Positions 1 to 15,584 of a DNA stretch of 24,812 nucleotides are shown piece by piece. Origin of the DNA: a virus; IMG/VR virus record IMGVR_UViG_3300018428_006207, positions 1 to 24,812 of that record; one strand, 5' to 3'. Position 1 is the first letter of the stretch, and each line of letters opens with the position of its first letter. A model generated the notes under the pieces. It was not told the DNA's origin, made no database searches, and saw only the letters and a program-made list of their open reading frames with translations. Made by a program: the position numbers and the translations under genes.

Positions 1-155
1 CCTGAAGTTCCACTAGTTCCTGAAGTTCCACTAGATCCATTGGTTCCACTAGTTCCTGAAGTTCCACTAGACCCTGAAGTCCCACTAGTTCCACTACTTC
101 CTGAAGTTCCACTAGTTCCACTGGAACCACTAGTTCCTGAAATACCAGAAGATCC
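1..155 (-). repeat. Collagen-like Gly-X-Y tract in the tail fibre gene
   Basis: Read on the minus strand, 17 consecutive Gly-X-Y triplets (GSS, GIS, GTS, GTN) begin at 155 and run off the left edge. At DNA level this is a degenerate 9-base repeat made of GGAACTAGT and GGAACTTCA units. Such tracts form rod-like trimeric shafts in phage fibres. X and Y are nearly all Ser or Thr, and proline is absent. Confidence 0.9.
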
Positions 156-3100
156 AGCATCTAATTCTATAACAACCCCATCAATATCAACTCCTAAATA
201 TTTAGTTGCAGAATAATCTTGTTTTTCTCCTTGACCATAACCACTTATTACCAAATAATCCTTAGAGCCGCTTTGGTAAATTATCCCAGTACCTAAAGTA
301 TCTTCATCTTTCCATAACGAAAAATAATTTGTTTTCCCAGAACCACCCACTCCCGAAAACACATCTTCTATCATTTTCCACCGAGGGCCTCCTTGCTCAG
401 AACTTAAAACCCAACCACCTGAACCTGTTGTATTTATAGAATCATATAAATAACCACTAATAATAGCATCACCATTAACATGTAAAAGATGCTTAGGTTC
501 TAAAACATTTACGCCAACATTCCCATCATAATCAAAAGTAACATGAGTACCCCCACCGTTTCCAAATTTTAATTGACCAGTAGACCCATCATTTCTTATA
601 GACCAATTAACAGGACCAGAACTTGGACCACTGGAATTACTGCTATAAAGCTCTAATACAGAATCTTCATTTTCAGCAGCAGCTATTCTCGCATAAACAG
701 TATTATCTCCAGATACTTCAAAGTTTCTTGTTTGCCCTGTTGTGCCTACACCAACTAACCCATCACCCTGCCAAGACATTATAGCTTGACCAGAAGCCCA
801 ACCATCAGCTACTGGATTTACTGTAGATACATATAAATGACTTTTAGGCCCACTAGCAGTATTAAAATTACCAAAAAAACCAAAGTTGGTGCGACCATCA
901 GTAACAATTCTTTTAAAACCCAACAATCCCTCTTTGTCATCTGTACCACCTAATATGTTAACTTTTGAAGCTAATCCTGATACAGCTCCAGCTAAACCAA
1001 CTTTCGATGCAGACAATTTAAGCGGAACATTTCTAGCATTTTCAGAATAAGTTAAAAATTCTGCACTACTCCCTAAGCTGCCAAGTATACCAATGCCAAA
1101 AGAAGATTCTATACTAAGAGCAGCCGTAGGTCCCGCTTGCGTAGGAGCAATAAACTGTATGCCAGCTACAGTGTTAGGATCAACAATGTTATTGTTTTCA
1201 ACACCAATAAAAGTTCCACCAGATGGCCCAGTTGCTGTAGATGCTTTAAAATAAGCTACATAATTTGTATATGTTGAAGGCCTTGAATCTCCACCTACAT
1301 AAAAAGGATATTCAGGATAATCATTAACACCTATCCAACCAGAAGTAAGATGCTGCCTAACAACACTATTTTTTAATGCTGCTGATCCAGCATTATCTGC
1401 ACCAGTCCATACAGGTAAATATGTACCAGTACCCGATAAAGCATCAACAGTTCCACCACCAAGTTGCCATTCTACGCCCCCAGGAACAGAAGTTAATACA
1501 TATCCACTTTCTCCTGTAGATCCATATAAATCATATAAAGAACCACTTAAATCTAAATTTCCAGAAACATACATGTTTCCAGATAAATTAAAGTCTCCAC
1601 TGAAATAAGAATCTCCAGAAACGTGCAATGGATATTCAGGAGTTGCTACATTTAATCCTACATAATTAGAATCTAAATCTTGAAAAAGACTACCAGTAGT
1701 TAACGTATCTTCATCTGACCAAATAGAAAAATAACCAGATTTACCGGATCCTCCAACGCCAGAAAGAACGTCTTCAATTGATTTCCATTCTGGGCCACCA
1801 GTTTGAGACGTTAAAACCCAACCACTTTGCCCAGTTGTATCATTATAATCATACAAATGACCACTAATAATAGCATCTCCAGAAACATGCAATTTATGCT
1901 GTGGAGCTACATCTCCTATTGCCACATTTCCATCACCAGATATTAAAAACCTAGTGAAATCCCCCCTCTTTATGACAAAATTTTTCTCCTCTGCCCCTAT
2001 TCTTACTGCAGTATTAGTTGCCGAATCAACATCTCTAAAATTAATATAAGCTCCAGTCTCGCTACTTTCAAAAAGAGAAACGCTTTTTTCATCAGAAAAA
2101 ACATGAAATCTATTAGCAGGAGCCGTTGTATTAATTCCTAAATTTCCATTAAAATCAAAAGTCGCTACATCTCCAACGCTATCATTTTTAAATTTTAAAT
2201 CGCATTCGTCAGTTCCTTCGTTGTAAATGGTCCAATTCACAGGACCAGTTGGCCCAGAACCACCACCGGCACCAATACTAGCAGCTCTTCTTCCCCCAGC
2301 ATACAATTCCAGAGCTGCATCATAACCACTAGGAGAAAATATTCTAGCATAAACATTATCAATTGTTCCAGCCGTAGGGCCTGATGGTGCTGCATAATCT
2401 CCAGTACCTTTAATTTCTAAATATCTTACTGGATTTGTCGTATTTAAACCAATTCTATATCTTTCATCTTCATATAAAGCAGAATGAATTAATCTAGTTG
2501 TGTATTCTTGCCCGGATCCACTAAATTTAGGAATATAACCACTTATCCCAGAACCTCTTAGCTCATCTCTAAAAAATGTATTATATGCAGCATCAATCGC
2601 CCCAGTAGTAAAAATTATTGAATCAGACCAATCTGAAGTATTTCTTCCATGCACACTTCTAATTTTTAATTCATAATTTGTTGAATTATTTATTGGTACA
2701 ATACAATATGGTTCTATTACAGAAACAACAGTAGATTGCCCAGTAAAACCTTCTCCCGTCCCGGTAGGGTAAGCAAAATCTATCCTTTCGGCTATTAAGT
2801 TTCCTGTTATTTTATTTTGATATTCGATTCCAGATACATTTCTATTTCCAGTGCTATGATCGTATGTGTAAAACCCCGAGTAAGAGCCTTTTTCTGGATA
2901 ATAAACAAATTGAAAATTTTCAGGGTCGTAACTATAATTTAAGAAAAGTTTGTTTGTATCTAAAGATCCACCAGATACATATATTGTATCATATTGTTGA
3001 CTTCCAGTAACAAATAGCTCATATTCACCTGTTGCATATAACCCAGATTTAATTATATTTCTTTTGTTTAATTTTACTACGTGATCTACCCACTGTATTC

Positions 3101-4202
3101 CACTTAAACCAGAAGGAGAAAAAACTGGACTATAATTCAAACCAGAATAATATCTATTTTTATTAATATCATCATAAAGATCATCAGCTGGAGTCCCTGA
3201 GTAAAGATACCCAGTTCCTTGGTCTATGGCTATGATATCATTTTTTGGATAAATATATTGAAAATTTATTTTATTCGGCTCGTATACCTTATCTTTCTCC
3301 CCACTTTGAAGAACCGATATTTGATACGTAGTTGTAGAATTATTTTTAGGAGCAGCCCAATGTAAAAACAATTTACTATTAACATGATTATTAAACTCAT
3401 TATAATCAGATAATATTCCACCAGTTATTATATAAGGTTTTTGCTCAGAATAAAATTGAGATAAAGAGGGCGTTTGTATAAAACCTATATTAAATAAGTT
3501 TCCTGTTCCGTAATTATCATGAGGCAATAATTTATAATAAAAATGGTTTTTAACTCCTGGAGAAAACCCCATATCACTATTATTATAAAATGTTTTTTTA
3601 TAATAAAGAAAATCTGGGTCTTGAAAAGCGGCACCAGTAAATGGTAGAGTAGAATACAAAAGTTCATATTTATTAAAAAACTGTAAATTAGAACCTTTGG
3701 GATAAAAAGATATTTTTTTATCAATGTTAACATCTACACCAGTCAAAGACGCTCTTTCGTATTTCAATCTTGCTACTACAGAAGTGTTATTATCATTTAA
3801 ATCTACTAATGACAATCTCAATGCAAAATCAGTCAATTTTGAGGGTTCATTAAAAACCTGAGAGGATAAAGTTTGTAAATTAAAATTATTTTGTTCTATA
3901 TTAAACGAATTAGCAGCTCTAGATAAAATGTAAGAATTTAAAACAAAACCATCTACAGTCATCAAATCCAACGTAAGACTTTTGATATATCTTACATCTT
4001 CTAACGAATCTTGTGTTTCAGTGTTATAAAACTCCCATTTAATAACATTTTCATGAAAATTATTTAAAACCCCACTAATAGAAGAAGTGACAGGAATAGA
4101 GCTATTATAAAACGTATCAGCTTCCGTAGTAAAAAAATTTCCAGTTAAATTTCTTATTCCTACATTGAAATTTTCAATTTGTGACTCGTCGTTAAATAAC
4201 AT
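1..4202 (-). CDS. Large phage tail fibre protein with collagen-like repeats (C-terminus beyond left edge)
   Basis: An open frame runs without a stop from an ATG at 4202 to the left edge, giving at least 1400 residues. The ATG overlaps the stop of the gpJ-like gene (TAATG) and has AAGGAG eight bases upstream. The first ~540 residues contain the segment YYKLLPHDNYGTG (near 3510-3550) and an FN3-type ending, YELKIRSVHGRNTSDW (near 2630-2690), both like the C-terminal parts of gpJ-type proteins. From about residue 610, fibre modules repeat (YARI..LELY, PVNW, LHVSGD, SGWVL, W.DEDTL). The last 51 visible residues are Gly-X-Y triplets. Likely role: the side or central fibre that contacts the host receptor. 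A C-terminal tip or chaperone domain would be expected beyond the edge but is not seen. The fibre call is firm; the receptor is unknown. Confidence 0.87.
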   Translation of the reverse strand, partial: MLFNDESQIENFNVGIRNLTGNFFTTEADTFYNSSIPVTSSISGVLNNFHENVIKWEFYNTETQDSLEDVRYIKSLTLDLMTVDGFVLNSYILSRAANSFNIEQNNFNLQTLSSQVFNEPSKLTDFALRLSLVDLNDNNTSVVARLKYERASLTGVDVNIDKKISFYPKGSNLQFFNKYELLYSTLPFTGAAFQDPDFLYYKKTFYNNSDMGFSPGVKNHFYYKLLPHDNYGTGNLFNIGFIQTPSLSQFYSEQKPYIITGGILSDYNEFNNHVNSKLFLHWAAPKNNSTTTYQISVLQSGEKDKVYEPNKINFQYIYPKNDIIAIDQGTGYLYSGTPADDLYDDINKNRYYSGLNYSPVFSPSGLSGIQWVDHVVKLNKRNIIKSGLYATGEYELFVTGSQQYDTIYVSGGSLDTNKLFLNYSYDPENFQFVYYPEKGSYSGFYTYDHSTGNRNVSGIEYQNKITGNLIAERIDFAYPTGTGEGFTGQSTVVSVIEPYCIVPINNSTNYELKIRSVHGRNTSDWSDSIIFTTGAIDAAYNTFFRDELRGSGISGYIPKFSGSGQEYTTRLIHSALYEDERYRIGLNTTNPVRYLEIKGTGDYAAPSGPTAGTIDNVYARIFSPSGYDAALELYAGGRRAASIGAGGGSGPTGPVNWTIYNEGTDECDLKFKNDSVGDVATFDFNGNLGINTTAPANRFHVFSDEKSVSLFESSETGAYINFRDVDSATNTAVRIGAEEKNFVIKRGDFTRFLISGDGNVAIGDVAPQHKLHVSGDAIISGHLYDYNDTTGQSGWVLTSQTGGPEWKSIEDVLSGVGGSGKSGYFSIWSDEDTLTTGSLFQDLDSNYVGLNVATPEYPLHVSGDSYFSGDFNLSGNMYVSGNLDLSGSLYDLYGSTGESGYVLTSVPGGVEWQLGGGTVDALSGTGTYLPVWTGADNAGSAALKNSVVRQHLTSGWIGVNDYPEYPFYVGGDSRPSTYTNYVAYFKASTATGPSGGTFIGVENNNIVDPNTVAGIQFIAPTQAGPTAALSIESSFGIGILGSLGSSAEFLTYSENARNVPLKLSASKVGLAGAVSGLASKVNILGGTDDKEGLLGFKRIVTDGRTNFGFFGNFNTASGPKSHLYVSTVNPVADGWASGQAIMSWQGDGLVGVGTTGQTRNFEVSGDNTVYARIAAAENEDSVLELYSSNSSGPSSGPVNWSIRNDGSTGQLKFGNGGGTHVTFDYDGNVGVNVLEPKHLLHVNGDAIISGYLYDSINTTGSGGWVLSSEQGGPRWKMIEDVFSGVGGSGKTNYFSLWKDEDTLGTGIIYQSGSKDYLVISGYGQGEKQDYSATKYLGVDIDGVVIELDAGSSGISGTSGSSGTSGTSGSSGTSGTSGSSGTSGTSGTNGSSGTSGTSGTS
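285..1896 (-). repeat. Three copies of a fibre module inside the tail fibre gene
   Basis: A module starting with LHVSGD or LHVNGD, followed by LYD..(N)TTG, GWVL or GYVLTS, a GG.EW/RW step, and a GSGK or GTGTY linker before a W residue, occurs three times: about 1896-1690, 1632-1400 and 496-285. Copies 1 and 3 are closest (shared GDAIISG, SGVGGSGK, DEDTL). A second element (VYARI..LELY..GPVNW..FD.NG.(L/V)G(I/V)N) precedes copies 1 and 3 at about 2352-2100 and 694-487. This suggests duplication of a larger block with later divergence. Confidence 0.8.
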
Positions 4203-7200
4203 TATAAAAGCTCCTTGTTTTTACCTATTCTATACACTAATGTTTCAAGCGTTACATTTTCTCGTATTTTGTTAGGTATAGCTATATTAAAAGTCTCTTT
4301 AACATCAGTTTTATACCACCTAAATGTAATTCTTCTCCCACATATTATAAGAGAAACTAACAACCCTTCCGTTTCATCAAATTGTTGTTGCGTTATAGCC
4401 CCTGACCTCAAAGCTTGATTTAAAGCTCGTGATGGATTAAATATATAAGATCTAAAAATTAAATCAAAACTTACTCCTATAGATTTTTCGGCTTGTACAT
4501 AGTGATCTACAGGAGCTTGAAAAGGTTGGGAGCCGTCATTTCCATTAAATAAAGCTCTAAAAACAGCACGTCCTGCTTGTTCACTTACTTTATCTGCTGC
4601 ATCTAAAAGTTCTTGAGGCTGAAAGTCTGATTGAGATAAAACTTCTAAAGAATTTTCATCTTCCACAAGAGTTGGCAACTCTAAAGCTTCATTAAAATCA
4701 ATGTGATCAAATTTACTTCTATTATATTGTGTTGCTTCTATTTCAAATTCAAAATCAGGTTTTTCTTTTATAGAAGACACCCTAAAAGGTAAATTGTAAT
4801 TTAAATCAGATCCGACCGCTTCCTCAAAAAACCATAAAGTAAATCTTTGTATCTGCGCAAAAGCTTTTCTATCTTTTTGGTTTGTAATGAATACTTTTAT
4901 TTGAGTCCTAAAATCATCATCAGTTTCAGAAATTTCGACTTCATCTACTTTCAAATAGTGTATATAAGACTTTTTTGTTCCTTTTATTTTAGCTTTTTCA
5001 AATTCATCCGTAGTAGAAGTGACAACCTGAAAACCAACAATATCATTAGGTTGTATAAAATCATATCTATTGTCTAAAGTAATTATATGACCAATAGACG
5101 GATCAAACTGTGTCCTAACCACCCTACCAGCTTTAGGACCAGCAGTTTTAAATCTATCTGAAATTGTAATAACATCTCCTACATCTAAAAATAAAGCTTC
5201 TTGGCTAGTTGTGAAAGATACTAATTCTGTTTCTACTTGATTCGTTATTAAGAACCATTTTCCAACTCTTCTAGCTTGCCCTATTGAAGTTATACCAAAA
5301 CCTAAAATTTCTTTTTCTATATATCCATAATCTCTAATAGCTTTATAATCTTCTACATATACAGTTTTATCTCTATAATTATCTGATGCATCACTATAGG
5401 TAACTTTACAAACAGTAAATTTTGTATCTCTACCAGCACTAAAATAATTAAAAATTCCATTCTTTACATTAGCGTTTGTAAAAGAATAAACTGGATCTTT
5501 TTTCTTATCTGTTGTAACGTTAACTGAAAAATTATTCCAATACGAGATGCCTCTAAAACAAGAAGCAATATTATTTATCAAATCAAATATTTCAGTAGGG
5601 TCTTGTAAATAAATATTGCAAGAAAATCTTGATTCTAATAAATTTGAAAATCCGCGTGAATTAAAAACAACGCTCATCTCAGCTGATTGTGTAATATAAT
5701 TATCTGAAACATATCTAGGTATTACAGGTAACTCGCTATCAGCAAAATTCATATTGCTATAATTTTTATCCCCCCTAATAAAGGCTGCTACTTGATAAAC
5801 AAATGTTGTTGCTTGTGCACCTAATGAAAAAAATGTCGCATCACCACGATTAACATTAAGTCTGGGAACATCACGACCATAAGGATTTTTATTTTTTGCA
5901 GCCGAATAAATCGGACCCATAAATTCTTGTTCAGTGATGGCTCCTTTTCCCAAACCTGACCTTAATTCTGTTATATACCTTTTAGCACCATCAAAAGAAC
6001 CCATGATTTTTTCAGCTCTTATTAGTTTTCCTACAGTAATATTCGGAGAGCTAGGATTAGAATCTAATATTACAGCTTCATAATTTTTATATTCTATCTC
6101 GCCTTCATCATTTGTATATCCTACATTTATAATAGATACTACGTAAATCCGATAATCCACATTAACGGATGGGTCGTTTATAGAAGGAAATGCAGCACTC
6201 CACTGCCTAGCAGCCAGACTTTGATCACCAGATAACGGGTTTGCAAACCAAATGTTATTTGGATTTATCGTTCTGACTTTTACTGGTTCATAAAGACTTC
6301 TTCCTCTAGTTTGAACTTTTTCGTCACAATATTTAGCTAGTTCATAAATCGACCATTTATTTAAATACCATGAATCACTAGTAAATCTTCCCACTCCATA
6401 TCTATTATTAGTTACTATGTCATATAAAATCCAAGCAGGGTTATTAGTCCATTGAAGGCTTGAACTGAAATTACCATCCCATTCCCCAAAATACGTTTTT
6501 GTTTCTGCATCATAATTATTAGGAACTTTAACCTTCAAAAGTTTCATCATATAACTTCTGTTTGGTACTTGAGAAACATTTCTCGAATCAATAATATTAT
6601 GTATATAAGCGGAATTAGGGTAACTAAATCTAGATTTTTGATACTCAGTAATTTTGACTAAAGTAAGATCTCTTTTATCTCGTGTATAAGTCATAGGTAT
6701 TTTTTTAGATATATTAAAAACCTTAATTATAAGAACTCTGCTCTCAATTGCGTCTACTAAATTTAAATTTAAATCAAATTCATAAGGAGAAGTACAACCT
6801 CCTGATAACCTAGCAAGAACAATAGCAAATGGCCTGTCATCACCTAAATACGATATAGTAACTGCTATATCTTGGTCTTTTGCTATAAGGGCTCCGTTCT
6901 TTTTTCTCATGTGGTATAATGCGCCTTGTTGAAAAGTAATACTTACATATCCTACATTCATATCATTAACTTCATGAGCAACACCAAAACCTCTTCTAAA
7001 TGTGTCATCATCTAATAATTTTTCTATATCCTTAAATTCTGCGTTACCTCCATAAAGAATAGGATACCTATCGTCTTGCCTAAGGAAAACAAAAGGCCTA
7101 TTAGTCATGTCAGGTAAGGGGCCTGGAGCAATGTCTCCTGCACTAGCAAATATAGCTGAAAGAACGGTATCAGAAACAAAGTCCCTTCTCACAGGATATA

Positions 7201-7762
7201 GTTTTTTACTATAGTCAGTCATTATTCCGACATTAAAAGGGCTAAAAGGGATATCACTTATGTTTGTCCCAAATCTGGTATAAGCCTCATCTTCAGATTC
7301 AGCAGTTGAAACTTGACTATCACCGAAACTATAACCTGCGTCATACCTTATAGAAACTCCGTTCCAATTGATTTGATTTGTATAAGTATCTTTAACTGGA
7401 ATATCATTATAAAAAACGGCTTTAAATATTTCTTCACTGCTGTCAATACTTTCAATCGTAGGATCAATATCTATGTCAAATCCCATATCATCTACAAACC
7501 CTCTAATAGGCCCTTCTCCTATCAAGTCTGTAATTACCATCTTGGAAGCGGACTCTAGTAGAGATGTTGCTGCTTTTTTCTTAAATCCGAAAATTTTCCC
7601 TTGATTGCATTGACTAAGTAAATAATCTCCAGGAGTAGGCTCTAGATTCAATGTCCTCCTCATATCGGACGTCCCTTGGGTATATGGTTCGGACGAAAAG
7701 ACTGAAGCAGACGGTCGAAAAGGTCTGTTATTTCTATTATTAGAATAAAATGTATCTGCCAT
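4202..7762 (-). CDS. gpJ-like tail tip / central hub protein
   Basis: Member of the lambda gpJ (host specificity, tip attachment) family. The N-terminal part has DLIGEGPIRGFVD, then NDIPVKDT..NWNGVSIRYDAG. Next come the highly typical YPNSAYIHNI, KVKVPNNYD, GEWDGNFSSSLQWTNNPAWI, VTNNRYGVG and YELAKYCDEKV motifs (about residues 380-483). The second conserved part begins at SRFSCNIYLQD (about residue 711) and runs through FTNANVKNG, YSDASDNYRDK, ARRVGKW and a DVGDVI..GRVV barrel-like segment. Between these parts lies an insert of about 225 residues. I chose the ATG at 7762, eight bases after the stop of the preceding gene, over an in-frame TTG at 7795 that overlaps that gene; neither has a clear Shine-Dalgarno site. 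At 1186 residues it is similar to lambda gpJ, but the insert takes the space of gpJ's distal domains. The next gene probably supplies the fibre. The protein should form the trimeric hub closing the tail tube. Confidence 0.94.
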   Translation of the reverse strand: MADTFYSNNRNNRPFRPSASVFSSEPYTQGTSDMRRTLNLEPTPGDYLLSQCNQGKIFGFKKKAATSLLESASKMVITDLIGEGPIRGFVDDMGFDIDIDPTIESIDSSEEIFKAVFYNDIPVKDTYTNQINWNGVSIRYDAGYSFGDSQVSTAESEDEAYTRFGTNISDIPFSPFNVGIMTDYSKKLYPVRRDFVSDTVLSAIFASAGDIAPGPLPDMTNRPFVFLRQDDRYPILYGGNAEFKDIEKLLDDDTFRRGFGVAHEVNDMNVGYVSITFQQGALYHMRKKNGALIAKDQDIAVTISYLGDDRPFAIVLARLSGGCTSPYEFDLNLNLVDAIESRVLIIKVFNISKKIPMTYTRDKRDLTLVKITEYQKSRFSYPNSAYIHNIIDSRNVSQVPNRSYMMKLLKVKVPNNYDAETKTYFGEWDGNFSSSLQWTNNPAWILYDIVTNNRYGVGRFTSDSWYLNKWSIYELAKYCDEKVQTRGRSLYEPVKVRTINPNNIWFANPLSGDQSLAARQWSAAFPSINDPSVNVDYRIYVVSIINVGYTNDEGEIEYKNYEAVILDSNPSSPNITVGKLIRAEKIMGSFDGAKRYITELRSGLGKGAITEQEFMGPIYSAAKNKNPYGRDVPRLNVNRGDATFFSLGAQATTFVYQVAAFIRGDKNYSNMNFADSELPVIPRYVSDNYITQSAEMSVVFNSRGFSNLLESRFSCNIYLQDPTEIFDLINNIASCFRGISYWNNFSVNVTTDKKKDPVYSFTNANVKNGIFNYFSAGRDTKFTVCKVTYSDASDNYRDKTVYVEDYKAIRDYGYIEKEILGFGITSIGQARRVGKWFLITNQVETELVSFTTSQEALFLDVGDVITISDRFKTAGPKAGRVVRTQFDPSIGHIITLDNRYDFIQPNDIVGFQVVTSTTDEFEKAKIKGTKKSYIHYLKVDEVEISETDDDFRTQIKVFITNQKDRKAFAQIQRFTLWFFEEAVGSDLNYNLPFRVSSIKEKPDFEFEIEATQYNRSKFDHIDFNEALELPTLVEDENSLEVLSQSDFQPQELLDAADKVSEQAGRAVFRALFNGNDGSQPFQAPVDHYVQAEKSIGVSFDLIFRSYIFNPSRALNQALRSGAITQQQFDETEGLLVSLIICGRRITFRWYKTDVKETFNIAIPNKIRENVTLETLVYRIGKNKELL
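4211..4216 (-). promoter_or_regulatory. Shine-Dalgarno site for the tail fibre gene
   Basis: AAGGAG lies eight bases before the ATG at 4202, inside the last codons of the gpJ-like gene. It is the only well-placed Shine-Dalgarno match among the ten starts visible in the window. It could be chance, because it also encodes Lys-Glu of the upstream protein. Confidence 0.55.
5636..6313 (-). other. Extra ~225-residue segment inside the gpJ-like protein
   Basis: In lambda-type gpJ the YCDE helix end is followed within a few dozen residues by the RF.CN strand. Here YCDEKV (ending near 6314) and SRFSCNIYL (starting near 5635) are separated by about 225 residues. The segment includes VDYRIYVVSIINVGY, YEAVILDSNPSSPN, GLGKGAITEQEFMG and FVYQVAAFIRGDKNYS. 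It looks like a folded beta-rich domain of unknown family. The borders are approximate. Confidence 0.6.
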
Positions 7763-7769
7763 AATATTA

Positions 7770-8288
7770 TTAAGTTGTGGCTGATGTTGTATCAAAAGTG
7801 TATTGTGTCACATTTACCACAGGGGGAGCTATCCTTAACATTCCGTAACCCAATGGAACAGGAGTATTTCTCGCCGCCGTATTGACCTTGCCTTTTAATA
7901 TGTACGAAGCAGTTTTGACATTTTTAGGGTCATCTTGGCCCATCATTTTTGCCATTAAATAAGAAACAGCCATACTTATAGCTATCATAATTATCACTTT
8001 AACAACAAAAATTACTATACTAACTGGATCTGCTAATGCAACTACAGGTATAACTTCTATTTTTTTTGCGTTTTTAAAAGCGTGTTCTAGATTATCTGCT
8101 TCGATTGTTTTACCGTCTATGACAAAAAAACATCCTGTTAATTTTTTTTTCATCAACTTTCGAAATTTTCTATAGATAGGTACGTTAGCCTGAAGATACT
8201 GACAAACTTCAAACCAAGAACTAACTTCTAAAAATCTAGGCTCCTTGCCCAACTTCTTCAAAATTCCATAAAAAACTATCTCTTTCAT
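7770..8288 (-). CDS. gpI-like tail assembly protein
   Basis: The 172-residue protein fits the lambda gpI tail assembly family. A basic N-terminal domain (residues 1-85, ending KIEVIPVVA) of the ubiquitin-like type is followed by a strong hydrophobic stretch at about residues 89-115 (IVIFVVKVIIMIAISMAVSY). The C-terminal signature is NTPVPLGYGMLRIAPPVVNV, which matches the family's VP(L)-YG-R(I/V) ending. In lambda, gpI acts with gpL, gpK and gpJ to build the tail-tip initiator and is not kept in the mature virion. The gene overlaps the gpK-like gene by 53 bases and ends just before the chosen start of the gpJ-like gene, so translation is probably coupled. No Shine-Dalgarno site precedes the ATG. 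Confidence 0.87.
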   Translation of the reverse strand: MKEIVFYGILKKLGKEPRFLEVSSWFEVCQYLQANVPIYRKFRKLMKKKLTGCFFVIDGKTIEADNLEHAFKNAKKIEVIPVVALADPVSIVIFVVKVIIMIAISMAVSYLMAKMMGQDDPKNVKTASYILKGKVNTAARNTPVPLGYGMLRIAPPVVNVTQYTFDTTSATT

Positions 8289-8613
8289 TTTTATTATTTA
8301 CACTTAAAAATTTGTGTTTATCTAATACATATACCAAAATAGGTAAATCATAAACTTCTACAAAATTTAAATCAGACTCAGACAGCTCATCGCTAAAAAG
8401 GTGAGAATGAAAACAAAAAAGAATATCATCTTTTTTATTAATTATGTCTAGATAAAAATCTGGCCCAGGCACAAAAAAGTTTGAATTTAATTCTAATGGC
8501 TCAAAATATTTTATATCAAAATTTTTATTAACATACCCTCCCGCCTCGAAAGGATCATTTCTGTGGCAATACTTAGCTATTTTAGTATATAAAAAATTAT
8601 GTTCTGTATTCAT
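8236..8613 (-). CDS. gpK-like tail assembly protein, JAMM peptidase domain only
   Basis: A small protein of 125 residues that matches the N-terminal Mov34/JAMM metallopeptidase half of lambda gpK. Visible zinc-site residues (numbered from the ATG) are Glu23 in EAGGYV, His69 and His71 in CFHSHLF, then Ser78 and Asp81 (H-x-H-x6-S-x2-D). The catalytic set therefore looks intact. The C-terminal NlpC/P60 cell-wall hydrolase domain of lambda gpK is missing: the frame ends in TAG soon after the JAMM fold. I chose the ATG at 8613, which overlaps the gpL-like gene by 17 bases. An in-frame GTG at 8637 would add eight residues. Position between gpL-like and gpI-like genes is exactly as in lambda. Confidence 0.85.
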   Translation of the reverse strand: MNTEHNFLYTKIAKYCHRNDPFEAGGYVNKNFDIKYFEPLELNSNFFVPGPDFYLDIINKKDDILFCFHSHLFSDELSESDLNFVEVYDLPILVYVLDKHKFLSVNNKNERDSFLWNFEEVGQGA

Positions 8614-9622
8614 AAGGTCTAGTTCCAGGAAAACCACCGTAAGGTAATCTTATAGAAGATTTATCTACGTCTCTAGGAGCACTAATCTCCCACCTTAACC
8701 TGCATCCATAAAGATTTTTTGCGCATTCATCTTGAACCCAGTATTCTCGATTAAGCTTAGGGTTTTTATTTGCTGAACTAGTATGCGATTTAAGACACAC
8801 AAACACAGATTTTATACCATCATTGCTTGATTCTTGCACAATTTCTCCCTCAAAATCATAAGCGAAAATAAGCTGCATATAAACATAATTCCCTGGAGCA
8901 TAACTTACCCCTGGTTGCCACTGACCTCTGTTTGACAGATTTAATCTATAATCTGTAAGGAACGTTTTATTTTCAGCATCAGCGATTGGTTCCCCTCCAA
9001 ATCGAGCCGGAAATCCGCTTTCCGTTTTAGCGAAATTTTTTCTACTACCCCAACAACATCCTTCACCTCTATAAAAAAAATCGCACAAATTATCATTTAT
9101 TTTTCTAGCAGGAAGCCTTAAGTTTTCTAAATCTAAAGGAGACGCAAGCTCTAACTCAACTTGATATTTATTCTCTAATTTCTTTTTTGCTATTATATAA
9201 AATTCTTTAAAATATTCTTTTCCATAACCTGAACTTTCATTAAATTTATTTATGTAACCCCAAAAAGGGTTCAAACCTTTTGGAAAATTTACATCATCAA
9301 TATTTTGAAGCATAACTTTTTTTCTTGTAACTTTTGATTTATTTAAATTATCTTTGTTTTTTATATATTTAGTTACTATACTATCTATGTTTGCAATTTT
9401 TATGGTAGGCCTGGGCGACGATCCTGCAGCATTTTGCTCTGACCCTTCGAACTCTATCGGACAAGGTAAATATTCTTTTCCATGAAAAAATATGCTTTTA
9501 TCAAAATTTTTTCCCGCATGAAGATATAAATATCCAACCGATACATCTATATAAACCTCAAAAAGCTCTAAAAAAGTATCTGGGTTTAATGTTAATATTG
9601 ATTTTAAATCTGATACACTCAT
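8597..9622 (-). CDS. gpL-like minor tail protein with Fe-S-type cysteines and an inserted domain
   Basis: The 341-residue protein matches the lambda gpL family. The N-terminal part (residues 1-170) has LNPDTFLELFEVYI, HGKEYLPCPIEF, PRPTIKIANID and later ELASPLDLENLRLPARK. The C-terminal part has Cys180 and Cys189 (C-x8-C), then Cys300 and Cys307 (C-x6-C) and the typical end LPYGGFPGTRPY. In lambda gpL, four cysteines with the same spacing inside each pair hold a [4Fe-4S] cluster. Here the two pairs are separated by about 110 residues instead of about 22. The extra segment (W235, SYAPGNYVYM, VFVCLKSHTSS, NP, YW) resembles a chitin/carbohydrate-binding CBM5/12 fold. The protein should sit in the tail-tip ring next to the gpJ-like hub. 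It lies 21 bases after the previous gene, with no Shine-Dalgarno site. Confidence 0.88.
   Translation of the reverse strand: MSVSDLKSILTLNPDTFLELFEVYIDVSVGYLYLHAGKNFDKSIFFHGKEYLPCPIEFEGSEQNAAGSSPRPTIKIANIDSIVTKYIKNKDNLNKSKVTRKKVMLQNIDDVNFPKGLNPFWGYINKFNESSGYGKEYFKEFYIIAKKKLENKYQVELELASPLDLENLRLPARKINDNLCDFFYRGEGCCWGSRKNFAKTESGFPARFGGEPIADAENKTFLTDYRLNLSNRGQWQPGVSYAPGNYVYMQLIFAYDFEGEIVQESSNDGIKSVFVCLKSHTSSANKNPKLNREYWVQDECAKNLYGCRLRWEISAPRDVDKSSIRLPYGGFPGTRPYEYRT
8729..8926 (-). other. Inserted CBM5/12-like segment within the gpL-like protein
   Basis: Codons for about residues 233-298 encode GQWQPGVSYAPGNYVYM, then VFVCLKSHTSSANKNP and EYWVQD. The spacing of W, SY, G-x-Y-V, the Y/F-x-C strand, H-T-S-S, N-P and W follows the small aromatic carbohydrate-binding modules of chitinases and of many phage tail proteins. 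It sits exactly between the two cysteine pairs of the gpL fold. Recognition is by pattern only. Confidence 0.6.
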
Positions 9623-9643: not shown

Positions 9644-12580
9644 TTAGTCCTCTACGGTACCCATTCTTCCCCAAAATATTTCAGTACTTTTAGTTCCTCC
9701 TTTATAATATGTTCCTGTATTAGGAATTTTTTCTGCCTCTGGAAAAACATAAGTTTCCTGCCTTAGATTGTCTCTATATAAGTACTTTCCAACCCCTGGT
9801 AATATTTCTGAAGGAAATGTAGACCCATTGACATAAAAAGCTTGAGGACTAGGATTATCTACTGTACCAAAATTACCATCTATGTATTTTCCAGTAGCAG
9901 GGTTGCAAGCTCCTAAGAAAAGCTTTCTTTTTGAATATTTAGCAGTTAAATTATCAAGGATTACATCTATAGCATTTTCCATTGTATAATTTGATTGCTT
10001 ATCTCCTATATTTGTATAAGTAACAACGTCGTATATGTTAAATTTTAAACAATCCCAAAAGTAACCTGAACGAGTAGTTCTCCTATCTATTTCTAGATAT
10101 TTTCCTGTACCCTTCGTCGCTAATTGAGTTTTATTAATGTAATTTCTTCCCGTAAGTAATGAAAGCGGAGGACGGGTTTTGCTGTTCCAGTACGTTAATT
10201 TATCACTACGAACAAAGCCCTCATCAGCAACAAAGTCGCCATTTGAAAGATCAGGATAACTATTCATTCTACACCAATTATTAATGTATAGAAATTGTGA
10301 TTGGCCTACCTTTAAGTTATCGGCTGTAAATCCTCGATCTCTGGTTTTTTTGCTAAACCAATCGCGTGTCAAAAGGTTTTCTTGTTTATAACCCACATCA
10401 TCGCAACCCCAAAAATAAGTATTTGTAACAGTATTATAACCTTGATATATAATACTTAATTTATTTTTATTCCAAACTCTCTTTTCATCAAAACCAGAAT
10501 AAGCTCCAATATCATAATCAGATCTCTGCTTAGTTCTTTCTATGTATACATTTCTTTGTCTTTTAAATGTGGCTTCTACGATGGCTTGATTCAAATTAAA
10601 TGTTTCTCTTGTCCTAAGTGGATATACGCCCATTAAACTATATGGATCACGAGGATCTGCTGTAAGATCACTCAAAGCAGCTCCAGTATAATTCGTTGGT
10701 TCCCTTTGCCACATTTCAAATGAAGGCATATGTGACCAATCAAATTCTCCGCATGTATCACTATATAATCTTAAAACATTTTTAGATTCTCTTATTGCAG
10801 GATTCACTCTAAAAGAATCGTTTGGACTAACCCATCTACCGACTTCTAATCTAAGGGCATTATATTCATTATACTGAAGCCAATGACTTAATTGTTCACA
10901 GCCACCACTAAACCCAGTTTTAGAAAATGAAGAGAAAGGAAAATTACAATAACTAGCCCCATTCATAACATCAGAACCCATAAAATAAGGCTCACCATTA
11001 GTCACATCAAAATTTGCAAACTTTGCATCCTCTGCCCACCTGGTAAATCTTTCTCTTGAAGGCACAGGAGGTTGTACATATTTATTATAGTACATCTCGA
11101 AATTACTATCCATATAACCACTTAAAAATCTTCCCGTATCCCTCTGCTCATATAAAAAAGTATTCAACGGATCAGAATTATCTAACAAAAACCATTTTAA
11201 ATTACTATACCCATTTCCACCATCAGTAAGGAAGTATAGATCATCATTCAAATTATTTAATTGCTCTGTGTAAGTATATTGACGTCCAGTACGAGGGTTT
11301 AATAAATCGGGATCTAATTTTCTATCTTTATCATCATAATCTAAATCTACCACATAAAATGTTAATATATTGTCATAGCTTAATTGGTCTTTTTCTTCAA
11401 TACTCATTCGATACCAATCTATTGCTCCTGATAATGGAATTCTTATATGCCCACTACTGGGAAGTTGATAATAAACATGTTTATCACCTCCAGAAAACAT
11501 ATCTGCCCCAAAAAAACCCACATTGTTATCGTCCATTAGAACGGTTCCATCAGCAATTTCTCCACTATTACCACACATAAATATAGCTGCGTCAGCATTA
11601 CTTATAACAGAAGTACCTGTTCTATAATCACAATATCCATAAAAATGGTCCCCCGACCAATCAAAAAGCCTAATATTGTTTTGAAATTCTTTTGCGCCAC
11701 CACTACCACTTATATAAATACTCATCCCTGTATAATTATATTGTGGATAAAGATCAAAAAGATCAACAGCGTTTTGATATCTTAAATTATTTACTATAAT
11801 TAAATTAGTTGAATGATCATAAGTAAAATTACAAGGGAAAGCGAAATTTGGAGTCAATATTGGGGTGACCCTTCTTATGTTTTCTGCGTATACACCATAA
11901 GCATTAGAAATTTGTATACTGTCATTCTGAATATTAAATACATCAGTCGGGAACTCAGGAATATAATTAAAATTTATTTTGCTAGCCATTAGAGTAGCAG
12001 GAGTTGAGCTGTTATACCTTTTTCCTGTTACATATTTTATAGCAAATCCTGCTTCAGAATAGTATTGAGATGCTGGATCCAGAAAATCTCCTTCAGAATC
12101 AACATAATTAGTCCTACTCAGAATTGCCCCTGTTGCAAAAAGCCCAAAATCTACTAAATAACCTGGCCTACGAACGACGTAAGGATTTTCAATCCATTCA
12201 TAAGCACTCCCCTGCCACCATTTTGCTGTTTGTTTATTTATTTCATATAAATTACGATTAAAAACGTTAGTATATCTGTCAGCTTTAAAACTATGTAAAA
12301 GATAATTTAACTCTCCCGCTTCTAAAAATTCAGGATCTTCATCATCTTCATCTTCTGCATCTTCTTCTATAGTAGCAGGTAGTCTCAGAACATCATCTTT
12401 AAATCTATACCAAAAAGGGGGCTTACCTCTTTCTCCTAAATCCCCACCTTTTCCCCCTTTAAAAAGGAACCATGAACTGCTGTTAGTATTTTCTTGAGGC
12501 GCTGAGTCAACCACTATAGGTATAGATTTAACTTCAAGCCCCTCAACAGAAAGTATGTCGTTTTTAATTAAGAATGGCAT
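9644..12580 (-). CDS. Unassigned large tail-module protein (978 aa)
   Basis: I do not recognise this protein as a whole. It has a hydrophilic N-terminus with a short glycine/charged stretch (KGGKGGDLGERGKPP, residues 41-55) and an acidic tract (residues 72-86, mostly Glu/Asp). The long middle is rich in Tyr, Trp, Asn and Asp, with isolated cysteines and no obvious repeats, signal peptide, membrane segment or coiled coil. A C-terminal stretch (residues 864-902: NYTMENAIDVILDNL, then LFLGACNPATGKYIDG) recalls short units in other phage tail proteins where a helix precedes an Asn-Pro or Asn-Ala-Pro loop. It sits between the gpM-like and gpL-like genes, so a structural role at the tail tip, as a decoration or accessory fibre, is the likeliest inference. 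Gaps of 40 and 21 bases flank it. Confidence 0.8.
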   Translation of the reverse strand: MPFLIKNDILSVEGLEVKSIPIVVDSAPQENTNSSSWFLFKGGKGGDLGERGKPPFWYRFKDDVLRLPATIEEDAEDEDDEDPEFLEAGELNYLLHSFKADRYTNVFNRNLYEINKQTAKWWQGSAYEWIENPYVVRRPGYLVDFGLFATGAILSRTNYVDSEGDFLDPASQYYSEAGFAIKYVTGKRYNSSTPATLMASKINFNYIPEFPTDVFNIQNDSIQISNAYGVYAENIRRVTPILTPNFAFPCNFTYDHSTNLIIVNNLRYQNAVDLFDLYPQYNYTGMSIYISGSGGAKEFQNNIRLFDWSGDHFYGYCDYRTGTSVISNADAAIFMCGNSGEIADGTVLMDDNNVGFFGADMFSGGDKHVYYQLPSSGHIRIPLSGAIDWYRMSIEEKDQLSYDNILTFYVVDLDYDDKDRKLDPDLLNPRTGRQYTYTEQLNNLNDDLYFLTDGGNGYSNLKWFLLDNSDPLNTFLYEQRDTGRFLSGYMDSNFEMYYNKYVQPPVPSRERFTRWAEDAKFANFDVTNGEPYFMGSDVMNGASYCNFPFSSFSKTGFSGGCEQLSHWLQYNEYNALRLEVGRWVSPNDSFRVNPAIRESKNVLRLYSDTCGEFDWSHMPSFEMWQREPTNYTGAALSDLTADPRDPYSLMGVYPLRTRETFNLNQAIVEATFKRQRNVYIERTKQRSDYDIGAYSGFDEKRVWNKNKLSIIYQGYNTVTNTYFWGCDDVGYKQENLLTRDWFSKKTRDRGFTADNLKVGQSQFLYINNWCRMNSYPDLSNGDFVADEGFVRSDKLTYWNSKTRPPLSLLTGRNYINKTQLATKGTGKYLEIDRRTTRSGYFWDCLKFNIYDVVTYTNIGDKQSNYTMENAIDVILDNLTAKYSKRKLFLGACNPATGKYIDGNFGTVDNPSPQAFYVNGSTFPSEILPGVGKYLYRDNLRQETYVFPEAEKIPNTGTYYKGGTKSTEIFWGRMGTVED

Positions 12581-12620: not shown

Positions 12621-15584
12621 TTATAAATCGCTGACTACAGTACTACTTTCTGATTTTGATTGCGCTTGTATGTAAAAATTATCTTGAAGCAAAAAAGGAA
12701 CAGCCAGAGAGTACCCTTCAGAACCAAATTGGCTTGTAGGTGCTTCCACAAAAATTTTAGTATCTATATTATCAACTGCTGAACCGTCAAAGATTTGTGA
12801 AGGGTAAGAATACTGAATTGTATCAATTATTTCATCTTGTGGATTAAAAGTTCCTGCACCAAAACCTCCATAAATTTGAAATTTTGGATCTTCAAGCGTA
12901 CCAAAAAAAACATTTTGAAAATGCCCTGTATTCTTCAGTCTTGTATCTATCGAACTGCTACTCATCCCAAAAAGCTGATTAAATCTTGTTATATCATCTG
13001 CTTGTTCACCTTGTTCATAAGTCCTCGCAAAAGAAAATCTATTTTCTTCGGTAACAGGTGTCTCTAACCCTTCTCTTATAGGTGTAAAAAATTTATAAAA
13101 AGAACCCGAAGGTAGACTTATTCCTCCCCCTCCTCCTCCTGCTATAACAGTAGAAGAATTTACATTAAAATCTATACTTCCCGAAGCATTAATATAGATT
13201 GCGCAGTTTCCATCTGAATCGCTCCTTCCAGCAGCGCCTATAACTGCTGTATTTTGCAAGAAAATAGTTAAACCGTCGTCTATATCAGTGTAATCTCCCG
13301 TTATAATCAAAGCTCCCGTATGAGTATTATCTGGCCCTGCAGATCCAATTACTGTTCCATTCAGAAAAATAACATTAACCCCAGAATAGTAATGCAATCT
13401 GTCTCTAAAAGTTCCATTTTGTCTTATAACATCAAATATATCAACATTATATAAGTTAGTATTATAAACAACAATATTTTCTACATGTCTTCCCCAATTT
13501 AAAGGAATGGGATCAGGAGTCCATCCTGAAATCACTTCAGGATTAGTTAAACTATCTATTATTCCATACCCACCGGTAGCATAAGTATTTTGTGATGAAG
13601 CGCTATAAGTAATATTTTCTCCTCTTACCCTAATATAATAAGTTCTAAGCTGTTCTACGTTATTAATCGTAGCTTCATATGAATGATTTAATCCACTTAA
13701 ATTTCCATATATACCATCAACTATGGAAGGATCTAATCTTTCTACATCTACAGTTGATCCTGTTGCTGCAGCAAAATCATCCTGTTCGCTCATCTCATAA
13801 CTAAAACGCTCGAAAAAATATCCAGTGGGAGGAGGTCTCCAATAAAGTTCTGTGCTTAATACGTCAGTGTCATAATCATATGATGGATAAGCTTGAACAT
13901 AATTAGGAAAACCTAACCAACTAGAATTGGGACCTGTAGCAAAATAAGTAGAAGGGTTATCTGTTTGAATTGCGTCGGATCTTCCTGTCAATTCAATAAT
14001 TACATCTGGGCCTCTATCTCCAAATTTTATCGCATATTGTTTTAGTGGTAATTCACTTCTATACCTAAATGGTCCACTTATAACCGGAACTAATTCTTCG
14101 GCAATATCTTCTGCAGTATATTCGATATCAGTTAAATAATAAGTAAAAGTAATTACCCCCGAAGACCCAGGAGGAAACTCGTTTTCAATTAAATTTTCTT
14201 GACCATGATCAAATATATCTATGTATTTATCTGATTTTTTATCAAAAATTTTATATGTAGATACATCTTGATTATCTACAGCTGTAAAAGTTATAACATC
14301 ACTGCCACTATTAACAAAATATAAATCTTTTGAAACAGCAAACCCAGAAGGAACGTAACCAAAATCAAACCCATCTTCTGGAGTATAAACAGGGCCTTCT
14401 ATATTATAATCAGTAAAGCTTTCTACATTAAAAATAGGTGGATCAGGAAGCCCATATACCACTTCAATAAAATTAGCACTGATAGTATTATTATTTTTAA
14501 AGTTGTAAGTATGGCTCCAATTTGGACAGACAAAGTTTTTGATTCCCGTAAAATTCGGTACTCCCCCAAATTCAAAAACATCTTTTCCTTGGTGTTCTTC
14601 TAGGTAATGCAACAGAGCTTTAGCTTCTTTATCTGATCTATTATTGAATTTTAAATCTAAAACTAAAAGGTTTGCATTATTTCCATCTAGCTGGTATAAA
14701 TAAAACTTGTCTAATAAATTTTTGTAATTTCTAGATTTCGTATCAACGCTATTAGACATGTCCGGTTTAAAATAGAACTGCTTAGTAAATTCTGAACTTT
14801 CGTATGGATATCTAGCTCCAAACGAATAAATTCCAGTCATATACCAGCTTTTTATAAGATTAGCTCCCCCTTCAGTTAAATAAACATAATCATGTCTTCT
14901 GTATTCTTTATCAGTTTTGTAAATTTGATCTGACGTATTCGGTATTAATAAACCGTCCCAGTATGTAGTAGACAAAAAAGGGCTATCAAAATTTACAGTT
15001 ACTTTATTTGAATTAGCATAAATGTAATTCGTATTTACATTTTCTATGTAGCCTGGAACTCTTCTAGAATAAGGAGGAAACAAGCTTAAATTTATTATCT
15101 TCTGGCCTTCAGAAGGATTTTCCTCGGAAAGCAAAGCGTTTGATTCATAAAAATGAACTATACTTTTAGCTTCTAAATCAGTAACTCCATCAAAATTAAG
15201 CTGAGCTTTTAATGTGAGTGAATTTGTATTTCTAGCTGCATTATATAAGTAATTATCTCCGAAATAAATTGAATATAAATTACTTTGAAAAGAAACAGTA
15301 GATCCGTAAGTCGGGGTGTAAAACCATTCTTGAGTCCAATACCTTTTGCCTCCCTCGGCATCAGGTCTAGTATAAAAATAAGCATCATCTCCTGAAATGT
15401 TTTGCAAACAATAATAATATCCAGTTTGAAAAGGCCGATTAACGGTTTCAGTTACTCCGTTTTGAGTATGAGTAGCAACAGGTATTCCCGTATAGTAAAC
15501 AGGCTGATACCTATAAAAACCAGCACCTGTCTCATAATAAGGAATATCAGATAAATTTATATTAAAATCATTTACGCTTTTCAT
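12621..15584 (-). CDS. Tandem gpM-like minor tail protein with FN3-like and glycine-loop domains
   Basis: The 987-residue protein appears modular. Residues ~90-205 (TPTYGSTVSF, FGDNYLYNAARNTNSL, AQLNFDGVTDLEAKSIVHF, SLFPPYSRRVPGYI) and ~268-380 (FKPDMSNSVD, LVLDLKFNNRSDKEAKALLH, FVCPNWSHTYNFKNNN) each follow the lambda gpM minor tail pattern: fold start, GDGY-like strand, F-x(n)-EA-helix, F..P, C..W. Residues ~405-500 look Ig-like (DFGYVPSGF, FVNSGSDVITF). Residues ~575-665 look FN3-like (LYWRPPPTGYFFERFSYEM, YYIRVRGEN). Residues 743-821 hold glycine loops (GTVIGSAG, VIGAAG, IAGGGGGG) as in some phage adhesins. Position downstream of the tape measure and upstream of the gpL-like gene agrees with gpM, which joins the tape to the tip. 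It starts 2 bases after the previous stop. The gpM assignment is pattern-based; the domain borders are approximate. Confidence 0.82.
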   Translation of the reverse strand: MKSVNDFNINLSDIPYYETGAGFYRYQPVYYTGIPVATHTQNGVTETVNRPFQTGYYYCLQNISGDDAYFYTRPDAEGGKRYWTQEWFYTPTYGSTVSFQSNLYSIYFGDNYLYNAARNTNSLTLKAQLNFDGVTDLEAKSIVHFYESNALLSEENPSEGQKIINLSLFPPYSRRVPGYIENVNTNYIYANSNKVTVNFDSPFLSTTYWDGLLIPNTSDQIYKTDKEYRRHDYVYLTEGGANLIKSWYMTGIYSFGARYPYESSEFTKQFYFKPDMSNSVDTKSRNYKNLLDKFYLYQLDGNNANLLVLDLKFNNRSDKEAKALLHYLEEHQGKDVFEFGGVPNFTGIKNFVCPNWSHTYNFKNNNTISANFIEVVYGLPDPPIFNVESFTDYNIEGPVYTPEDGFDFGYVPSGFAVSKDLYFVNSGSDVITFTAVDNQDVSTYKIFDKKSDKYIDIFDHGQENLIENEFPPGSSGVITFTYYLTDIEYTAEDIAEELVPVISGPFRYRSELPLKQYAIKFGDRGPDVIIELTGRSDAIQTDNPSTYFATGPNSSWLGFPNYVQAYPSYDYDTDVLSTELYWRPPPTGYFFERFSYEMSEQDDFAAATGSTVDVERLDPSIVDGIYGNLSGLNHSYEATINNVEQLRTYYIRVRGENITYSASSQNTYATGGYGIIDSLTNPEVISGWTPDPIPLNWGRHVENIVVYNTNLYNVDIFDVIRQNGTFRDRLHYYSGVNVIFLNGTVIGSAGPDNTHTGALIITGDYTDIDDGLTIFLQNTAVIGAAGRSDSDGNCAIYINASGSIDFNVNSSTVIAGGGGGGISLPSGSFYKFFTPIREGLETPVTEENRFSFARTYEQGEQADDITRFNQLFGMSSSSIDTRLKNTGHFQNVFFGTLEDPKFQIYGGFGAGTFNPQDEIIDTIQYSYPSQIFDGSAVDNIDTKIFVEAPTSQFGSEGYSLAVPFLLQDNFYIQAQSKSESSTVVSDL

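Follow-up and report, generated by a model that had tools for sequence, protein, structure and literature searches.

A marine-type phage encodes a gpL tail-tip protein that carries, between its two Fe-S cysteine pairs, an insert whose residues ~231–297 resemble CBM5/12 chitin-binding domains beyond chance. Within the window analyzed, the whole 24,812-base stretch of a virus record, we establish the gene, its cysteines, the insert and the CBM5/12 resemblance. On balance we lean, with modest conviction, toward a gpL hub in which the nested CBM5/12-like module has one cluster at its base, faces outward and likely makes weak contact with a glycan or other polymer. Such modules would extend the known set of adhesion parts at the tips of siphophage tails; annotation of gpL by PF05100 alone hides inserts of this kind.

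A lambda-type gpL with distant cysteine pairs

The open reading frame at 8597..9622 on the minus strand (341 aa, stop included) is a lambda-type gpL, as a preliminary description of this DNA had proposed. It passed the cut-offs of both PF05100 (E 1.7e-29, 103.1 bits against 25) and TIGR01600 (E 8.1e-29, 100.4 bits against 70.75), and lambda gpL was the top match in a PDB sequence search (E 5e-12). HDI, the tail-tube-like ring domain, covers residues 1–165 (9128..9622, minus strand) and was predicted by AF2 with pLDDT mostly 80–93. Predicted residues 11–169 align with lambda gpL (8iyk_L) at Z 15.0 over 146 residues, the top structural match, confirming that the HDI fold is present.

The gene sits in a lambda-like tail-tip block on the minus strand and is followed by a protein of 133 aa at the place of gpK (8236-8637), named by position and with no Pfam match, a gpI-like protein (7770-8288; phrog_32, E 1e-13) and a gpJ-like protein (4202-7795; phrog_31, E 1.4e-110). 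It shares with lambda the gene order L-K-I-J, in addition to the HDI fold and the cysteine spacing within each pair.

Cysteines occur in the gpL frame at positions 54, 180, 189, 190, 276, 300 and 307. The first Fe-S pair, C180-x8-C189 (9056..9085, minus strand), corresponds to lambda C173/C182, and the second, C300-x6-C307 (8702..8725, minus strand), to lambda C205/C212; together these are the cysteines of the lambda gpL cluster, Cys173/182/205/212 (PMC10721106). The lambda spacing claimed for both pairs holds, and all four cysteines are unchanged in 38/38 aligned gpL sequences. Equally, the claimed separation of the pairs by about 110 residues was confirmed by counting: the gap between the second and third cluster cysteines is 110 residues, compared with ~22 in lambda, which lacks a nested domain, and in most relatives. 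In a sample of 103 distinct gpLs, biased towards the queries used and not a census, the gap has its mode at 21–22 residues (68/103) and reaches 40 in a handful; it exceeds 40 only in the window family (110–123) and in the clade of Synechococcus phage S-CBS4 (247–275).

A CBM5/12-like module between the pairs

Positions 8729-8926 on the minus strand, the segment first singled out, encode gpL residues 233–298. In the 38-gpL alignment the insert proper begins at about residue 216. A linker into the insert (residues 198–230; 8933..9031, minus strand) precedes the module itself (residues 231–297; 8732..8932, minus strand). The insert also occurs in three further contigs at 99–100% identity. Another three, of which two do not differ over the part searched, carry it in gpLs with 50–52% whole-protein identity. 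This recurrence, at 99–100% in some contigs and at ~51% gpL identity in others, shows that the insert is no assembly artefact. Identity between the two lineages is 72–75% around the first cysteine pair, 58–61% in the C-terminal part, 54–55% in HDI and 42–43% in the module, compared with 27–30% in the fast-diverging linker. Searches of the phages collection with the C-terminal half, of genome contigs, and of viral contigs by way of gpI and gpK found only the same two lineages; with the full protein of L021, a more distant relative, 0/848 matches in the phages collection covered 80% of the query.

The SY-x-x-G-x-Y-V pattern reported for the insert is present as S240-Y241-x-x-G244-x-Y246-V247. 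Against a profile built from 56 bacterial CBM5/12 domains, the insert scored 27.4 in local hhalign alignment (maximum of 600 column shuffles, 20.4) and 26.4 in global alignment (maximum of 600, 14.3), and 0/300 segments of the phage's other proteins equaled its score. When only the window sequence was used, local alignment spanned residues 5–65 of 67; the match of L021 is less complete. In Pfam the insert missed the CBM_5_12 (PF02839) cut-off, scoring 15.9 against 26.2 bits over only the first 15/44 positions, with a second sub-threshold fragment at positions 20–32 in the right order.

Residue by residue, the insert follows the W...Y..G..V ... [YF]xC...HT..P......W pattern of CBM5/12 domains (ChiA1, 1ed7; chitin deacetylases 4nz4 and 8yh4; C. 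violaceum chitinase 4tx8) and keeps most of their core. Our query sequence for the chitin-binding domain of ChiA1 hit 1ed7 (chitinase A1; E 1.3e-28). The core of ChiA1 comprises W656, Y662, V668, Y670, Y675, C677, L695 and W696 (PMC3701571), and 6/8 of these are kept or conservatively replaced here (W235, Y241, V247, F274 for Y675, C276, W295); Y670 and L695 are changed to M249 and Y294. The main role in ligand binding belongs to ChiA1 Trp687 (PMC3701571). Its place is taken by Lys286 (8765..8767, minus strand) in an ungapped alignment of ChiA1 C677-W696 with window C276-W295, and the same loop has no Trp in either L021 or L025. Further differences from CBM5/12 domains are a ~20-residue loop after the second strand, the sub-threshold Pfam score, and location in a phage hub. 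Of the original interpretation, the lambda-type gpL, the intact cysteine pairs and the CBM5/12-like segment that lies between them are supported.

Because ChiA1 Trp687 is a lysine here and the Pfam cut-off is missed, sugar binding by the module is putative. The same holds for the reversible first contact proposed for it. The likeliest job of the module would be to engage a glycan of the host, or another of its surface polymers, through weak and multivalent contacts. In view of the missing tryptophan, a role that is structural only must be taken seriously as a rival, and we assign it a smaller but substantial probability: a CBM5/12-type fold serving as decoration, which packs on neighboring tip proteins or shapes the tip, with the central fiber gpJ and the two large tail proteins (978 and 987 aa) as candidate partners. 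Retention of the fold core alongside the Trp687-to-Lys replacement fits such a role. So does the loop QxIFxYDFxxExVQxSSxD (residues 250–268), the best-conserved part of the module between lineages, which could be a protein interface. The pattern of divergence argues the other way. Between the close relatives L021 and L025, a single sequence pair with regions fixed before counting, linker and module together hold 14 nonsynonymous and 14 synonymous codon changes, compared with 8 and 35 outside them (p 0.008 by Fisher's test), and so diverge faster than the remaining gpL; the module alone shows no significant excess of amino-acid changes (p 0.20). Moreover, 4/7 of the amino-acid changes in the module fall in the loop that bears the ligand residues in ChiA1. 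This concentration of codon changes in linker and module, together with conservation of the insert across two lineages at 51% identity, supports the contact-making module that we favor, whereas the replaced ligand tryptophan, the sub-threshold Pfam score and low model confidence over the insert weaken it.

The full-length AlphaFold model (38 rows; mean pLDDT 60.6) is good for residues 1–165 and falls to ~40 over 166–299, and is accordingly silent on the insert and on whether the cysteines meet. A model of the insert alone, made from 3 rows without CBM sequences, also has low confidence (pLDDT 51). In a Foldseek search of the PDB with this model the first five matches are chitinases, at a weak E of 1.0–2.0. 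On closer alignment CBM5/12 domains fill most rows at Z 3–4.2, including chitin deacetylase 4nz4 residues 384–432 (Z 4.2, 47 residues, 2.3 Å), 4tx8 residues 2–52 (Z 4.1) and 1ed7 residues 655–698 (Z 3.1, 42 residues at 1.9 Å); Z 3–4 is weak by the structural tool's own standard and below its reliable level. A viral-structure search with the insert gave no match below E 0.17. The Foldseek/VIA matches, mainly to CBM5/12 domains, nevertheless count, since they indicate the same family as the sequence profile, which was absent from the model input. That agreement bears on the possibility that the likeness is a chance motif in an unrelated beta insert. The sub-threshold Pfam score and low-confidence models would suit a chance motif, but with the profile score reached by 0/600 shuffles and 0/300 other segments, and an independent structural comparison indicating the same family, we consider it very unlikely.

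Probable placement on the tail tip and comparison with known hubs

On the favored reading, the Fe-S C-terminal domain of gpL carries a nested CBM5/12-like beta module of ~65 residues plus linker. By analogy with homologous cryo-EM structures, both cysteine pairs would form one [4Fe-4S] cluster at the module's base. Distant pairs can meet in this way. The JBD30 cluster cysteines lie at 147, 156, 238 and 245 (PMC11445458), and R4C hub cysteines that fit the pattern lie at 147, 157, 244 and 251; in the cryo-EM hubs of RcGTA, R4C and JBD30 the pairs are ~80–87 residues apart and still serve one cluster. The Fe-S domain of lambda gpL sits on the outer surface (PMC10721106), and in RcGTA and R4C the hub is a trimer situated beneath the distal tail ring (PMC7296036, PMC10276861). 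Homology to these hubs suggests that a single basal cluster would fix the window module at both ends and direct it outward from the tail-tip ring, probably in three copies per tail. That the module touches a host glycan is our best guess, in line with the glycan contact proposed for the RcGTA hub (PMC7296036).

The nested-domain layout is already known. RcGTA g13 has an oligosaccharide-binding domain at 168–249 between ion-binding segments at 143–167 and 250–263 (PMC7296036; published 2020), and the hub of roseophage R4C (8gtc) has a nested domain at 162–243 between 142–161 and 244–266 (PMC10276861; published 2023). Both share with the window a two-segment Fe-S domain with a domain, ~82 residues and termed 'oligosaccharide-binding', nested between the pairs. 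The insert might then be a domain of this kind that has come to look like CBM5/12 by convergence. Site and size agree (82 residues in R4C), but the R4C domain, the only one of the two compared, is unrelated to the window insert in sequence (hhalign probability 0.3–0.4%). The carriers differ as well: the R4C hub combines an N-terminal PF09931 with PF09356, both strong there and neither listed up to E 1 for the window gpL, whose hub domain is PF05100. Given also that CBM5/12 domains predominate among the structural neighbors of the insert model, convergence is the least probable of the alternatives, and the favored reading remains a CBM5/12-like module.

Other tail tips show comparable additions. 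In lactococcal and other siphophages, 'evolved' Dit proteins, likewise part of the tail-tip ring, contain an inserted carbohydrate-binding module (PMC7291167); there the carrier is Dit and the CBM fold is of BppA type. S-CBS4-type gpLs (L007:1965-3362 and L211–L236) have a large insert at the same PF05100 gpL site with the cysteine pairs kept, and differ in its 247–275 residues, the lack of a CBM5/12 Pfam match, and Ala-rich helix-like segments at both ends. The middle of that insert looks beta-rich, and the arrangement may be that of a head on a stalk. For a lambda-type gpL, a CBM5/12-like module appears to be new, seen in only two related lineages, and we found no published description of one in a search that did not reach most of the subscription literature.

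The inserts of the window, S-CBS4-type and GTA-type hubs have no detected mutual relation (S-CBS4 compared by Pfam only). Unrelated modules at one site with the cysteine pairs kept lead to a testable idea, that the cluster closes an insertion-tolerant loop. More broadly, and tentatively, the loop between the Fe-S pairs could be a repeatedly used socket for exchangeable host-contact modules, with the cluster as a clasp that preserves the ring; it would hold the CBM5/12-like module here, a large helix-armed head in S-CBS4 and, in GTA-type hubs, another domain of sugar-binding type. We rate this broader proposal as somewhat doubtful. According to PMC10721106, what the Fe-S cluster of gpL proteins does awaits characterization.

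Other gpL variants and neighboring genes

Two other gpLs, L085:2303-2530 and L075:677-970, have an extra N-terminal module before HDI. The L085 module begins with a stretch weakly like CBM5/12 (hhalign 21.2; 1/150 shuffles as good), unlike that of L075, where no such start was seen.

Within the window, the gpK-position protein shows by eye an E...HxHx7SxxD pattern of JAMM type, and is too short to include the NlpC/P60 part of lambda gpK. A 978-aa protein (9644-12580, minus strand) without Pfam or PHROG match lies between gpL and the gpM-containing protein; L021 has a similar, shorter protein (744 aa) at this place. The gpM-containing protein, 987 aa long (12621-15584, minus strand), matches Phage_min_tail (gpM) below the cut-off over residues 269–376, so that this much larger protein may harbor the distal tail protein. 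Its N-terminus matches Pfam WW_like, again below the cut-off (E 0.0018); a CBM5/12 signal in the same protein was checked and not supported. At the downstream end of the block, positions 1-4200 (minus strand) hold a long, probably fiber-like coding region with Ser/Gly-rich repeats that is cut by the contig end.
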